NCBI RefSeq assembly: GCF_025790165.1 | Contig: NZ_CP094970.1 | Location: 2,852,001-2,916,000 of the forward strand | Reading direction: 5' to 3' | Length of the DNA: 64,000 bases | From: Solicola gregarius | GTDB lineage: Bacteria; Actinomycetota; Actinomycetes; Propionibacteriales; Nocardioidaceae | Part shown: one piece after another, positions 5,220-60,752 of the stretch | How positions within the stretch are numbered: position 1 is the stretch's first letter | Layout: every line of letters begins with the position of its first letter | Position numbers and translations under genes: made by a program | Notes under the pieces: model-generated | Seen by the model: only the letters and a program-made list of their open reading frames with translations | What the model was told of the DNA's origin: nothing | The model's database searches: none

Positions 5220-5275
5220 GACGAGAGAATCTGCAGTTGACCGCGAATCGCGGGCCAACTGCAGATTCTCTCGTC
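5220..5275. repeat. Palindromic repeat, family A copy 1
   Basis: Perfect 20-bp inverted arms at 5220-5239 and 5256-5275 (arm GACGAGAGAATCTGCAGTTG) with a 16-nt centre that is itself partly palindromic (CCGCGAATCGCGG). It sits 2 bp after the menE stop, between convergent genes, so it can serve as a bidirectional terminator, though there is no T-run. A second copy in the opposite orientation lies at 6297-6358, on the other side of the DUF559-type gene. Confidence 0.85.
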
Positions 5276-6296: not shown

Positions 6297-6358
6297 GGTG
6301 ACGAGAGAATCTGCAGTTGGCTCGCGATCCGCGGGCAAGTGCAGATTCTCTCGTCACC
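6297..6358. repeat. Palindromic repeat, family A copy 2 (inverted relative to copy 1)
   Basis: Arms at 6297-6319 and 6336-6358 (23 bp, one mismatch) with the core ACGAGAGAATCTGCAGTTG of copy 1. Comparing the asymmetric centres shows this copy aligns best with copy 1 after reverse complementation, so the two are inverted. It lies in the divergent gap between the DUF559-type gene and menC, 18 bp before the menC start. That is a promoter position, so it is unlikely to be only a terminator. Confidence 0.85.
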
Positions 6359-21850: not shown

Positions 21851-21960
21851 GCGGCGAGAACCCCAGGGCGGGCACGTGCCGCGACGAGAACCCCAGGGCG
21901 GGCACGTGTCGCGACGAGAACCCCAGGGCGGGCACGTGCCGCGGCGAGAACCCCGGGGTG
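21851..21960. repeat. 30-bp minisatellite, about 3.7 units
   Basis: Units at 21851-21880, 21881-21910, 21911-21940 and partial 21941-21960, nearly identical, running GCGACGAGAACCCCAGGGCG then GGCACGTGCC. The last ten bases are a perfect palindrome. Units are contiguous, with no spacers, so this is not a CRISPR. As 30 is a multiple of 3, frames stay open through it on both strands, but no protein character supports coding. Confidence 0.85.
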
Positions 21961-22015
21961 AGGAGGATCGGGATCCACGTTCGAGCGTGCACTGAACGAG
22001 AAGGTCAGCGGCGCA

Positions 22016-22096
22016 GACCCGAGATGTGGTCCGAGACTGCGAAGTCGCCACGAGTGGAGTCGCGACGAGTCGCAGTGTCGGATCACATCTCGTAGA
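22016..22096 (+). repeat. Dispersed palindromic element, family D copy 1
   Basis: 81 bp bounded by GACCCGAGATGTGG and CACATCTCGTAGA. Inverted arms at 22020-22042 and 22070-22092 pair at 21 of 23 positions, and the centre has a further small GTCGC/GCGAC stem. Two more copies (26492-26572 and 26630-26712) share both ends and length, which defines a true repeat family rather than independent hairpins. Confidence 0.85.
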
Positions 22097-22124
22097 TCGG
22101 CCAGCAAACCGCGCAAGTGCAATT

Positions 22125-22233
22125 GGTGCGGGAGCGACGGGTCGGCGGTGCGGGAGTGACGGGTCGGCGGTGCAGCACGACGACTCTGCGGTGCGGGAGT
22201 GACGGCTGGGCGGTGCGGGTGTGACGACTCGGC
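22125..22233. repeat. 22-bp minisatellite, five units, ending at the helicase stop codon
   Basis: Units at 22125, 22147, 22169 (21 bp, most diverged), 22190 and 22212, consensus GGTGCGGGAGTGACGGGTCG followed by GC. The array stops 2 bp before the last codon of the minus-strand helicase gene (22236). It resembles in period and start (GGTG.GGGAGTG) the array at 52778-52915. Confidence 0.8.
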
Positions 22234-22235
22234 GG

Positions 22236-24753
22236 TCAGCGGGCAGCATAGGGGCCGACGGACGTTATCCGTACGGCAGCGGCGCCGATCGAGTCCGACT
22301 CCGCCAGGTCGACGATCGCGCCGATACCCCAGTCGCGGTGCCCTTCGGGGTCGTCGAAGGTCTGGCGTACATCCCAGTGCCCCGCAGACTCGGCGATGGT
22401 GAGCAGCGCCGGGCCTCGCGCGTCCGGGCCAGTGCCGACGCGGTCGTACTCCTCGAAGTACTCGGCCATCGCGTCGGCCCACGCGTCGGCATCCCAGCCC
22501 GCATCGGCATCGAGGTCCCCGAGCTCGTCGTAGCGTCGTAGCGCCGCCAGCTCGATACGTCGGAACATCGCATTGCGTACGAGCACCCGGAACGCGCGCT
22601 TGTTGCCGGTGACCGCTGCCGGCTCGTCGTCGACCATCTCGGGGCGCACCTCGACCCCCGACTCGCCGGCGGCGAGCTTCTCCCACTCGTCGAGCAGGCT
22701 GGAGTCGGTCTGGCGTACGAGTTCGCCCAGCCACTCGGTGATGTCGCTCAGCTCCTCGGTGCGTACGGAGTCGGGAACCGTGTGGAGCAGGGCCTTGTAC
22801 GCATCGGAGAGGTAGCGCAGCACCATGCCTTCGGAGCGCGCGAGCCGGTAGAACGCGACGTACTCACCGAACGTCATCGCGCGCTCGAACATGTCTCGCG
22901 CCACCGTCTTCGGCCGTAGCTCGTGATCGGCGATCCACGGGTGCCCCGTGCGGTAGTGCTCGTACGCCACCTCGAGCAGGTCGCGCAGGGGCTGCGGATG
23001 TTCGACGTCCTCGAGCAGTTCCATGCGCTCCTCGTACTCGATGCCCTCGGACTTCATCTCCGCGACCGCCTCGCCGCGCGCCATCGACCGCTGCGCCGAG
23101 ATGACGGGTCGGGGGTTCTCGAGCGTCGACTCGATCACCGACAGCACGTCGAGCGCGTACGTGGGGCTCTCGGAGTCGAGCACATCGAGAGCCGCGACCG
23201 CGAACGTCGACAGCGGCTGGTTGAGCGCGAAGTTCTCTTGCAGGTCGACGGTCAGGCGTACGCGACGGCCGTCGGCGTCCGGCTCGTCGAGGCGTTCGAC
23301 GACGCCGCCGGCCACGAGCGCGCGGTAGATGCCGATCGCCTCTCGGATGAGACGGTTCTGCGTGCGGCGATCCTCATCGTTGTCGCGCAGGAGGTGATGC
23401 ATCGCCTCGAACGCATCGCCCGGTCGTGCGACGACGTTGAGCAACATCGAGTGGCTGACCCGCATCCGCGAGACCAACGGCTCGGGTTGCGATCCGACGA
23501 GGCGCTCGAAGGTGCCCTCGCCCCAGGAGACGAACCCCTGCGGTGGCTTCTTGCGCACGACCTTGCGACGCTTCTTCGGGTCGTCGCCGGCCTTCGCGAG
23601 CGACTTGTGGTTCTCGACCTCGTGCTCGGGCGCCTGTACGACAACCGTGCCGACCGTGTCGTACCCGGCTCTGCCCGCCCGGCCGGCGATCTGCTGGAAC
23701 TCACGTACGTTGAGCTGTCGCTGTCGGATCCCGTCGTACTTGGAGAGGCCGCTGAACACGACCGTGCGGATGGGCACGTTGATGCCGACGCCGAGGGTGT
23801 CGGTGCCGCACACCACCTTCAGCAGACCCGCCTGCGTGAGGGTCTCGACCAGCCGGCGATAGCGGGGAAGCATTCCCGCGTGGTGCACGCCGATGCCCAT
23901 ACGTACAAGGCGAGAGAGCGTCTTGCCGAAGCCTGAGCGGAACTTGAAGTCGCCGATCTTGGTGGCGATCGCGTCCTTCTCCTCACGCGTGCAAACGCGG
24001 ATGCTGCTCAGCGCCTGCGCGCGCCTCGAGCGCCGCCGCCTGGGTGAAGTGCACGACGTACGCGGGCGCCTGATGTGTCTCGAGCAGCTCCTCGAGGGTC
24101 TCGTGCATCGGCGTGACCACGTACTCGAAGTTCAACGGCACCGGACGCTCGGCGGAGGAGACCGTGGACGTGGCTCGCCCGGTACGCCGGCGGAGGTCGC
24201 GCTCGAAGCGGGTGGTGTCGCCGAGGGTTGCCGACATCAGCAGGAACTGTGCCCGCGGCATCTCGATCAGCGGCACCTGCCATGCCCAGCCGCGGTCGGG
24301 CTCCGCGTAGAAGTGGAACTCGTCCATGACGACGAGCCCGAGGTCGGAGGCGGCGCCTTCACGGAGAGCCCTGTTGGCAAGGACCTCCGCGGTCGCGGTC
24401 AGGATCGGCGCGTCGGGGTTGACCGAGGCGTCACCCGTCAGCATGCCGACGTTGTCGGCACCGAACATCTCGCACAGGGCGAAGAACTTCTCGGACACGA
24501 GCGCCTTGATCGGTGCCGTGTAGATGCTTCGGCGGCCCTCGGCGAGTGCCGCGAACTGCGCGCCGGCAGCGACCAGGCTCTTGCCCGACCCGGTCGGGGT
24601 CGCCAGGATCACGTTCGAGCCGGAGACCATCTCGATCAGCGCCTCGTCCTGCGCGGCGTACAGCTCGATGCCCTGATCGCCCGCCCACGTGCCGAACGCC
24701 TCGTACAGTGCGTCGGCATCGGCAGAGTCGGGCAGATGGTCGATGAGGCGCAT
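22236..24753 (-). pseudogene. SKI2-like DEAD/DEAH helicase with DUF3516 C-terminus, split by a single-base frameshift
   Basis: The first part (24753 to 23983) has Walker A ATPTGSGKS, TAPIKALVSEKFF, box II VVMDEFHFY and SATLGD. It then leaves the family frame after AYVVHFTQAAALE and ends in HPRLHA. The second part (from about 24017 down to 22236) resumes with QALSSIRVCTREEKDAIA, RMGIGVHHAGMLPRYRR, TLGVGINVPIRTVVF and the QIAGRAGRAGYD box, followed by the DUF3516 region. Exactly one extra base in the GC run 24018-24025 explains the split; removing it gives about 838 residues, the normal length. It could be a real null mutation, a consensus error, or (less likely) recoding. The family acts in RNA/DNA remodelling; the cellular role is unclear. 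Confidence 0.88.
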
Positions 24754-24980
24754 GGTGCCGCAATGGTGACACGCGTCCCATTCGGCCCACGCGTCGCGTA
24801 CGAACAGGGCTCGACGTGTACGCTTTACCTCGACTGGGCACGCATTCGGCGAGCCCTCGGTCGTCTGCTTGAGCGCCCGACCTACGCGGCGCCCCTACCT
24901 TTCTCGAGTCTCTTGCGATCGGTCCTGCAACCGCGGCCACCTGAGCCCAAGGACTTCCCTTGACTTTGCAACACAGCACC

Positions 24981-26285
24981 ATGCCCATTTCCGAGTCCGG
25001 ATCGCCCGGATTCGCCGACCTCGGCGTACGCGACGAGATCGTCTCCGCGCTGACGGCGCAAGGCATCGAGTCCGCGTTCCCGATCCAGGCCGCGACCCTT
25101 CCGGACTCCCTCGCCGGACGTGACGTCCTGGGCCGCGGGCGTACCGGGAGTGGCAAGACCATCGCCTTCGCGATACCGACCCTGAGCACGCTCGCCGGAT
25201 CGGGACGTCGCCGCCGTCCTGGCACGCCCCGGGCGCTGGTGCTCGTCCCCACCCGCGAGCTCGCGGCACAGGTTGCGGCGGCCGTCGTACCACTCGCGAC
25301 GAGCCTCGGGCTTCGGTCGATGACCGTGTACGGCGGTGTCAGCCAGGGCCCGCAGGTCTCCAAGCTCAAGGCGGGCGTCGATGTCTGCATCGCGACGCCG
25401 GGCCGGCTTGAGGACCTCATCGGCCAGGGTCACTGCCGACTCTCCGAGGTCGAGGTGACCGTGCTCGACGAGGCGGACCACATGGCCGACCTCGGCTTCC
25501 TCCCCGCCGTCAAGCGCCTTCTCGACCAGACACCGCGGTCGGCGCAGCGGCTGCTGTTCTCCGCGACCCTCGACAACGGCATCCAGACACTGGTCAAGCG
25601 GTACCTGACGAACCCGGTGACCCATTCGGTCGACAGCGAGACGTCGCACGTACCCGAGATGGAGCACCACGCGTTCGTCGTCGACCGCAACCACAAGTCG
25701 GAGGTCGTCCGCAAGCTGGTTGCCGGTCGTGGCCGGACGCTCGCGTTCACGCGTACCAAACACGGCGCCCGCGCCCTTGCCCGCAAGCTGACGGCGGCCG
25801 GCATCCCGGCCGTCGACCTGCACGGAAACCTCAGCCAGGGTGCGCGTCAGCGCAACCTCGAGGCGTTCGGGTCGGGGACCGCGCGGGTACTCGTTGCCAC
25901 CGATATCGCCGCTCGCGGCATCCATGTCGATGACGTGTCGCTCGTCGTCCACGTCGATCCGCCCAGTGAGCACAAGGCCTATCTGCACCGCTCCGGGCGT
26001 ACGGCACGCGCCGGCGCCAAGGGCCGTGTCGTCACGGTCGTCACGCACGACCAGCGTCGCGACGTACGCCAGCTGATGCGGCGGGCCTCCATCGACCCGG
26101 TCGTCGTCTCCGTCGTACCCGACTCGGCCGACATCGTCGAGCTCACCGGTCCCCCGGCCGACCAGGTCGATCCGGCGACGGTGGCAGTGCGGGTGCCGTC
26201 GGGTTCCAACGGCGGTGGGCGTAACCGCAACCGCGGCAACCGACGTCGCAGGTCGAGCCAGCGCAGCGGTTCACGGCGCGGCTAA
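24981..26285 (+). CDS. DEAD-box ATP-dependent RNA helicase (RhlE/CsdA-like)
   Basis: About 434 residues with the DEAD-box motifs in order: Q motif GIESAFPIQAATLP, I GRGRTGSGKT, Ia PTRELAAQ, Ib TPGRLEDL, II VLDEADHM, III FSATLDN, IV LAFTRTKHGA, V VLVATDIAARGIHVDDVSLVV, VI YLHRSGRTARAG. It ends in a basic, low-complexity RNA-binding tail (GGGRNRNRGNRRRRSSQRSG). ATG 24981 is chosen; a TTG at 24960 is also possible, and no good ribosome-binding site precedes either. It is divergent from the frameshifted helicase. DEAD proteins of this type unwind RNA in ribosome assembly or mRNA decay, often during cold stress. Confidence 0.92.
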   Translation: MPISESGSPGFADLGVRDEIVSALTAQGIESAFPIQAATLPDSLAGRDVLGRGRTGSGKTIAFAIPTLSTLAGSGRRRRPGTPRALVLVPTRELAAQVAAAVVPLATSLGLRSMTVYGGVSQGPQVSKLKAGVDVCIATPGRLEDLIGQGHCRLSEVEVTVLDEADHMADLGFLPAVKRLLDQTPRSAQRLLFSATLDNGIQTLVKRYLTNPVTHSVDSETSHVPEMEHHAFVVDRNHKSEVVRKLVAGRGRTLAFTRTKHGARALARKLTAAGIPAVDLHGNLSQGARQRNLEAFGSGTARVLVATDIAARGIHVDDVSLVVHVDPPSEHKAYLHRSGRTARAGAKGRVVTVVTHDQRRDVRQLMRRASIDPVVVSVVPDSADIVELTGPPADQVDPATVAVRVPSGSNGGGRNRNRGNRRRRSSQRSGSRRG

Positions 26286-26307
26286 TACCGCCTGCGTCTG
26301 TGTCACC

Positions 26308-26388
26308 TGTGCGACGAGCCGTGTCGATCACGATGCCGAGCCGGCGGGCGTACGGCATCGCGTCGACGAGTCCTGCAACCTCAGACAT
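26308..26388 (-). pseudogene. Truncated 5' end of a PaaI-type hot-dog thioesterase-like gene
   Basis: The minus strand shows a strong AGGAGGAGTC ribosome-binding site followed by ATG 26388 and MSEVAGLVDAMPYARRLGIV, which looks like the beginning of a PaaI-like thioesterase. After about 25 codons the resemblance ends and the frame runs into the reverse complement of the DEAD-box 3' end. This is best read as a remnant left by a deletion. The identification rests on a short segment, so confidence is moderate. Confidence 0.45.
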
Positions 26389-26491
26389 GACTCCTCCTGT
26401 CTACCGCAGCGAAACCGAGCCGAGAAGCCCAGGGTGAACAGGACTCGAGAAGGCCAACAAAGGTGCACAGGGTACGAAGGCCACCGAAGGA

Positions 26492-26572
26492 AACCTGAGA
26501 TGTGGATCGAAAGTGCGCTACCGCGGCGAGCAACCGCAAGCTCGCGCGCACTTTCGTTTCACATCTCGTAGA
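26492..26572 (+). repeat. Dispersed palindromic element, family D copy 2
   Basis: 81 bp with ends AACCTGAGATGTGG and CACATCTCGTAGA. Inverted arms 26497-26518 and 26546-26567 pair at 19 of 22 positions. It has the same length and orientation as the copy at 22016. It lies downstream of the DEAD-box gene and 57 bp from an inverted third copy. Confidence 0.85.
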
Positions 26573-26629
26573 GATGGTCGCTGTTCCGCGGTACAGGCGT
26601 TGGTTGACGCTCGCTTGTGAGTGACCCTC

Positions 26630-26712
26630 TCTACGAGATGCGGGCCGACAGTGCACCCGAGCCGACCACGCGACCGTTGTCACTACGGCACTCTCGGCCC
26701 ACATCTCGGGTC
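26630..26712 (-). repeat. Dispersed palindromic element, family D copy 3 (inverted)
   Basis: 83 bp. Read on the minus strand it begins GACCCGAGATGTGGG and ends GCATCTCGTAGAG, as in the other copies. Arms 26634-26654 and 26688-26708 pair at 19 of 21 positions. Copies 2 and 3 thus form a head-to-head pair in the 560-bp gap between the DEAD-box and XRE genes. The rest of that gap shows no gene except the thioesterase remnant. Confidence 0.85.
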
Positions 26713-26844
26713 CCCTCGGTGCCCTTCTTACTCAGTGCACCTACGCTTCGCTTCTCGAGCATTGTTCAACCGGGGCTGCTCGCCGCTTGCCACGTTACGC
26801 CGGAGGTAATGGCGCGGGAGAGCGCACGCGTCGACCCTTGAGGC

Positions 26845-56025: not shown

Positions 56026-56089
56026 CCGCCGAGGTACGGATTCCCGCCAATAGAGTCGCCGCTATTGGCGGGAATCCGTACCTCGGCGG
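56026..56089. repeat. Palindrome H, perfect 28-bp arms
   Basis: Arms at 56026-56053 and 56062-56089 pair at all 28 positions around an 8-nt loop; the arm begins CCGCCGAGGTACGGATTCCC and continues GCCAATAG. It lies 11 bp past the yajQ stop and about 150 bp before the korA start, both on the minus strand, so it probably terminates yajQ. The arm sequence recurs at 60690-60752 (family H). Confidence 0.85.
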
Positions 56090-60689: not shown

Positions 60690-60752
60690 CGCCGAGGTAC
60701 GCGTTCCTGCCGATCCCGGGGTGGCGTAACGGCGGGAAGGCGTACCTCGGCG
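60690..60752. repeat. Palindrome I (family H copy 2)
   Basis: 23-bp arms at 60690-60712 and 60730-60752 pair with two mismatches; the arm begins CGCCGAGGTACGCGTTCCTG. The shared outer sequence CCCGCCGAGGTACG and the TTCC.GCC inner motif match palindrome H at 56026-56089. It lies between convergent genes (DUF4240 and the SDR), 46 and 35 bp from their ends. Confidence 0.8.

Follow-up and report, generated by a model that had tools for sequence, protein, structure and literature searches.

A dispersed seven-copy hairpin repeat in Solicola gregarius with kinship to hairpins at stop codons

Element C in the window and along the genome

The window, that is, the whole 64,000-nucleotide stretch analysed here, covers positions 2,852,001-2,916,000 of the single 4,915,757-base contig of Solicola gregarius. 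Two of its intergenic regions carry a repeat that we call element C: one copy (C1) lies behind a split DUF3516 helicase gene and two copies (C2 and C3) lie behind a DEAD-box helicase gene (Pfam assignments). The DUF3516 helicase gene occupies two frames here and a single 838-aa ORF in the one same-genus species compared (G001), whose genome is collinear with this one; the split is either a frameshift or an assembly error. A sequence-only reading of this DNA had described three palindromic hairpins, with correct coordinates and orientations and with end sequences that all three indeed share, and the inverted pair 57 bp apart that it pointed out is C2/C3.

The hairpin, which that reading took for the unit, is only part of it, as homology runs 73-74 bp further upstream in all seven copies in the genome. 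Element C is ~155 bp long and joins a 73-74-nt 5' module to an 81-83-nt hairpin of near-constant length; to the end of TAGA, the aligned element measures 154-156 bp in every copy. The 5' module was ruled out as a coding end because 1-nt gaps between copies break the frame. Searches were made with a covariance model built from the C1-C3 hairpins (R1) and a model of the whole element, 5' module and hairpin (R2). The copies and the features next to them are the following.

21852-21941 (+): three extra 30-bp units, each a direct repeat of the 5'-module head (CGRCGAGAACCCCAGGGC...), before C1
21942-22096 (+): C1, complete element (5' module 21942-22015; hairpin 22016-22096, with its stem at 22020-22092); R2 170 bits
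22125-22236 (+): 22-bp repeats (CGGTGCGGGAGNGACGACTCGG) behind C1, including the scan place 22145-22231
22236-23900 and 23983-24753 (-): the two frames of the DUF3516 helicase gene
26287-26370: remnants of both ends of an ORF intact in G001 (35 bp at 89%, 48 bp at 92%), followed by C2/C3
26418-26572 (+): C2, complete element (5' module 26418-26491; hairpin 26492-26572); R2 137 bits
26630-26785 (-): C3, complete element, inverted (hairpin 26630-26712; 5' module 26713-26785); R2 126 bits
Genome 4,610,001 (-): C4, from the R1 scan
Genome 3,066,605 (+): C5, from the R1 scan
Genome 4,653,313 (-): C6, from the R1 scan
Genome 4,691,035 (+): C7, from the R1 scan

Folding of the C1-C3 hairpins is far stronger than that of dinucleotide shuffles on either strand (z of -4.7 to -7.0, matched by 0 of 200 shuffles). 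A gapped stem pattern derived from them gave five matches in the 4.92-Mb genome, all inside the same three hairpins, and none in its reversed control. The R1 scan found seven strong copies, C1-C7, and blast with a C5-like query returned the identical set. The idea of a dispersed palindromic family with further copies is thus borne out, with a genome total of seven rather than three, spanning 1.8 Mb. With R2 the C copies score 126-170 bits, and nothing else in this genome exceeds 41 bits. The copies are diverged, being mutually 53-85% identical, and therefore present mobility is not indicated. Heads of the 5' module recur as direct repeats before some copies, with three extra at C1 (30-bp spacing) and one extra each at C4 and C6 (31 bp; partly by eye). 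Opposite C6 lies an inverted, truncated module head (motif score of 24.0, versus at most 20.2 elsewhere in the stretches of this genome scanned), which we grade as possible because one place in G001 scores 22.8. The Rfam scan of the window returned three tRNAs only, with no family above its gathering score at the hairpins.

Conservation of the stem and its kin at stop codons

Over the seven C copies, 95% of stem cells are paired. Double compensatory changes occur in five pairs of the 23-pair stem and amount to 11 cells, versus 2.9 ± 1.3 with shuffled partners (0 of 500 shuffles) and 1-2 doubly changed cells in slid registers, so that the compensating changes claimed from three copies exceed both controls. 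In a joint set of four C hairpins and four hairpins of the related T type described below, 9 of 23 pairs are doubly changed (21 cells versus 8.9). The shuffles, for the C set and for the joint set alike, leave the relatedness of copies in place. Among C copies, mean pairwise identity falls from 85% for the outer stem and 78% for the stem as a whole to 67% for the 5' module and 51% for the loop. The earlier description of a centre that diverges yet keeps pairing holds for inner-stem columns 97, 98 and 102 but fails for the loop of ~29 nt, whose fold differs from copy to copy; with 51% identity against 85% in the outer stem, the loop therefore varies freely and shares no pairing.

On the strand that begins with GACCC, GU pairs outnumber AC pairs 14 to 1 in C (13 to 1 under another register rule). 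As a sign of RNA this excess is suggestive, because it comes from six columns versus one and is absent in the T hairpins, where 8 GU and 11 AC pairs show no GU bias. Taken together, the C stem is likely maintained by selection on the folded form, as the sequence-only reading proposed; the covariation above controls favours this short of proof, since the shuffles keep relatedness and template-switch correction of palindromes also makes paired changes.

R1, built from C1-C3 alone, also drew three weaker hairpins in this genome (E of 8e-6, 4e-5 and 2e-3), which are of the T type and share arm sequence (CGAGATYTGGGAYG) and layout with the C hairpin. A model trained jointly on four hairpins each of T and C (R3) finds 16 places in this genome, seven C and nine T. 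By model match length, eight T hairpins measure 75-76 nt and one 85-86 nt; C measures 84-87 nt in the same way. For eight of the nine T hairpins the ORF scorer calls a stop codon at a distance of -8 to +14 bp, and the ninth directly follows a TGA whose frame looks conserved with G001 (by eye); three of the nine are located between convergent genes. Seven of the nine sites could be located in G001, where one has the same hairpin (T2696637), three have other strong hairpins, one has 22-bp repeats (by eye) and two have nothing. The three replacement hairpins were equalled by 0, 0 and 1 of 200 random G001 stretches, a lenient control because these stretches are mostly coding. Hence at several stop codons hairpins have been exchanged with position kept, as expected of terminators with turnover. 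T hairpins are most likely transcription terminators or protectors of mRNA 3' ends. The C and T hairpins are kin, the former deriving from the latter or having a common origin with them.

Beyond this genome, six of 39 relatives have an R3 match at E ≤ 0.05, this genome included. G001 has one convincing place, and G014, a MAG of another genus with 8% contamination, has five of a 74-nt form; these are near-alike, T-related hairpins (CCCCGAGATTTGTGCGCATACGGC) at loci L118, L122, L123, L125 and L127. Single matches in G004, G006 and G038 and a weak second match in G001 (L124) look unrelated. An order-wide R3 search, with 11 candidates scored per genome, was nearly devoid of matches (one in G198 reached 29 bits); this is weak evidence because the search also lost this genome's own T hairpins (11 matches versus 30 in the 39-relative search).

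Genomic sites, the sister species and other repeats

All seven C copies are intergenic by the calls of the ORF scorer; one neighbour of C6, which the scorer missed and we read by eye, is presumably ASCH-like. A Pfam scan covered ten proteins around the five sites other than C6. Besides the helicase genes of the window, C4 lies between PriA-like and formyltransferase genes, C5 between Dyp-type peroxidase and aldehyde dehydrogenase genes, and C7 behind an ABC transporter gene, and no shared theme emerged among these ten proteins at five of the six sites. The hairpins have no U-tract, and the nearest stop codon is 82-344 bp away, 82-206 bp for six of the seven (C1 ~140, C2 ~206, C3 ~344, C4 ~114, C5 ~82, C6 ~123 and C7 ~105 bp). 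C7 is followed by another hairpin of the ordinary type, with a 13-bp stem (by eye).

In G001, element C is absent at all six orthologous sites. The C6 site measures 9 bp there versus 366 bp here. The C7 site is 85 versus 335 bp, and in G001 holds an ordinary T-tailed hairpin. The C4 site is 148 versus 280 bp, with a different 22-bp tandem repeat in G001. At the C5 site G001 carries 1.8 kb of other sequence that looks coding, and at the C1 site an ORF of ~150 aa. At the C2/C3 site it has an intact ORF, which we take to be thioesterase-like, and a further open frame; here only the two ends of that ORF remain. The simpler reading of these sequence comparisons would be that C was gained in this lineage rather than lost in G001, a direction based on one outgroup together with absence elsewhere under strict filters.

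With R2 and strict filters, matches at E ≤ 0.01 occur in 9 of 294 family genomes, this one included. None of the other eight exceeds 34 bits and G001 is not among them, and thus no comparable C copy was found in the 293 other genomes. The one weak match of the eight that was aligned (L058) retains little of the stem. With R1, 7 of 39 relatives, again including this genome, have a match at E ≤ 0.1. The G001 match (L027) is a T hairpin, and those at L024, L025, L026, L028 and L029 are other hairpins or none, with at most the CGAGA foot in common. No match was found by blastn with the C5 element in phage and plasmid records, with two T-type hairpins as queries in plasmids, or with three patterns in viral contigs. 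A pattern of the 5' module, which fits five of the seven copies here, had a single match in a genome collection that may leave out this genome, in an Armatimonadetes MAG; we take it as chance because the 301 surrounding bases show nothing else of the element.

Other repeats were noticed in these two genomes. The 22-bp tandem repeat CGGTGCGGGAGNGACGACTCGG is a separate dispersed family, with 16 units within two mismatches versus 0 in a control. It borders C1 and C6, and C5 has one degenerate unit (by eye). At seven of eight places read by eye it closely follows a stop codon (TGACTCGGCGGTGCGG...). G001 has a different 22-bp tandem repeat (CGAGAACCATCACGCTGACACG), with eight units at six places (e.g., 2630857, 2131019 and 1210169), which is present in 1 of 39 genomes; one of its arrays lies behind the PriA-like gene, the C4 site here. 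A double-hairpin repeat of ~60 bp (GTTTACCAAGTAAACATGGTGAAACTCCACTTTGCATGGCAGGGACACCGTGCAAAGTG) occurs 13 times in 552 kb of G001 sequence, which extrapolates to ~100 per genome, and 206 kb of this genome contain a single composite copy. The window contains two more pairs of similar long hairpins; all but one of these four hairpins closely follow a gene end. Another hairpin, TGAGCCGCACGTTTGTGCCG... at L031 10783-10840, has six further matches in G001, with identities of 74-77%.

Genome 644044, 816614, 1444693, 2677420, 2949171, 3232087, 3568206, 4145810 and 4653160: CGGTGCGGGAGNGACGACTCGG repeat
L033 11625-11726 and G001 loci L079, L083 (two), L085, L087, L090, L092, L141, L147, L149, L150, L151 and L153: GTTTACCAAGTAAACATGGTGAAACTCCACTTTGCATGGCAGGGACACCGTGCAAAGTG repeat
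Window 5220-5275 and 6297-6358: hairpin pair GACGAGAGAATCTGCAGTTG
Window 56026-56089 and 60690-60752: hairpin pair CCGCCGAGGTACG

Origin of the element and comparison with known classes

Our combined findings suggest, with moderate confidence, that C is a dispersed, non-autonomous repeat of ~155 bp with seven copies, apparently specific to this lineage, that it is intergenic and REP/BIME-like in behaviour, and that its core is akin to the terminator-like T hairpins. The copies would have spread by duplication within this lineage, no dedicated transposase would remain, and the stem would be kept because the folded strand is used. Element C may have grown around a T-type hairpin, multiplied in the lineage and then aged. 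Its folded arm could have been kept for a role of the hairpin in transcripts, as RNA in the 3' UTR, or for the needs of copying, where it would be single-stranded DNA; both may apply. A broader proposal, which we regard as rather unlikely, is that the stretch behind stop codons in this genus is a docking place for interchangeable, self-copying gene-end cassettes (T, C, others and the 22-bp repeats), with orthologues ending in different members. C would then be a mobile terminator with an acquired 5' module, copied without a dedicated transposase, for example by hairpin-primed template switching.

Several of our observations could also be explained if C were a terminator or a 3'-UTR processing hairpin, such as an RNase III site, kept at each site for its function and spread only incidentally. 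Hairpins of NEMIS repeats are an example of such RNase III sites. The covariation of the C and the joint stems, the 14 to 1 excess of GU over AC pairs on the GACCC strand, the kinship with the stop-codon T hairpins and the gene-end position of other long hairpins in the window would all fit. We nonetheless find this explanation unlikely, as the distances of 82-344 bp from stop codons, the second hairpin behind C7 and the lack of a U-tract go against it, the GU bias comes from six columns versus one and is not seen in T, and the 5' module, needless for a terminator, is conserved too. For the neighbouring genes C is unlikely to be the main terminator, because it lies farther from stops than 98% of the correctly identified sites in PMC8355165 and because C7 precedes another hairpin.

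Two further explanations do without a role in transcripts. The low mutual identity of the copies, together with ORFs that survive at some sites in G001 and are lost here, would be expected of neutral relics of an extinct element, the arms of which seem to have co-varied through template-switch correction of palindromes in replication. Yet the element varies in length by at most 2 nt, and a loop (51%) far more diverged than the outer stem (85%) and the module (67%) does not resemble uniform decay, making relics a distinctly unlikely explanation. Alternatively, the palindrome or cruciform and the module repeats spaced by 30/31 bp might bind a protein, be it a regulator or one that organises the chromosome. 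Such a DNA site would account for the extra module heads at C1 (three), C4 and C6 (one each, partly by eye) and for the outer stem arms being the most conserved part. It is very doubtful, however, given seven uneven sites with none in the sister species, neighbours without a common theme (ten proteins at the five sites other than C6), and GU pairs, which would be unexpected in a duplex site.

If C is indeed a dispersed repeat built on a terminator-like core, it represents a REP-like family without a Y1/RAYT gene and with a measurable link to stop-codon hairpins. At the corresponding sites the sister genome holds the same repeat, lacks it or carries a replacement, which turns the mobility of terminators as repeats into a testable question, and the C/T family lets one see how evolution might copy and exchange the signals at gene ends.

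Among known repeats, REPs are described as palindromes of 20-40 bp with a 5-13 bp stem and a GTAG/CGTC tag unpaired at one end (PMC3733652). They lie for the most part behind genes and frequently form inverted pairs; their stems include GT pairs, and some families are species-specific (PMC3733652). They are reported there mostly from Proteobacteria, and the main text of that article does not use the word actinobacteria. Copy numbers usually exceed 100 (PMC2817692), with smaller families noted too (PMC3733652), and many REPs are associated with a RAYT transposase (PMC2817692). The sequence-only reading likened the hairpins to REP/BIME elements, and this holds for their dispersed, extragenic distribution, frequently behind genes, the inverted pair, the GT pairs and a GTAG end in five of seven copies. 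As to units in alternating orientation, as in BIMEs, the genome has one full inverted pair (C2/C3) and a possible truncated inverted partner at C6. The likeness stops short of REP/BIME proper, as C has a 23-pair stem, a unit of 81-83 bp (~155 bp with the module), only seven copies and a GTAG at the 3' foot whose G is paired with column 80. Of the partner transposases that the reading suggested looking for, the Y1/RAYT type (Y1_Tnp, PF01797) was found in neither genome of the genus, versus 5 of 14 control genomes positive by the same search. Target-site duplications did not turn up either: none was consistent among copies, and at common offsets neither C nor T stood out from mismatched pairings. 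By definition C is not a REP, given the lack of Y1/RAYT, the overlong stem and the seven copies.

Unlike MITEs, single C copies are asymmetric and have no terminal inverted repeats, with no target-site duplication at common offsets. NEMIS/Correia, BOX and ERIC repeats are hairpin-forming, intergenic sequences of about 100-160 bp with no transposase of their own. Compared by description, C resembles them in size, hairpin, intergenic place and lack of Y1/RAYT, and differs in having no Rfam match and no target duplication found. A survey of 40 genomes lists 92 stem-loop repeat families, three of them under high-GC Firmicutes (PMC2267715), and no title or abstract found in the open-licence literature described fitting repeats from this order or from Actinobacteria. 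As for intrinsic terminators, 98% of the correctly identified sites in PMC8355165 lie within 80 bases of the stop codon, and that article also knows terminators without a U-tract. The T hairpins resemble intrinsic terminators in lying at stop codons and within this distance, whereas C differs in lying 82-344 bp from stops and in being embedded in a larger conserved repeat, while termination itself needs no shared sequence.
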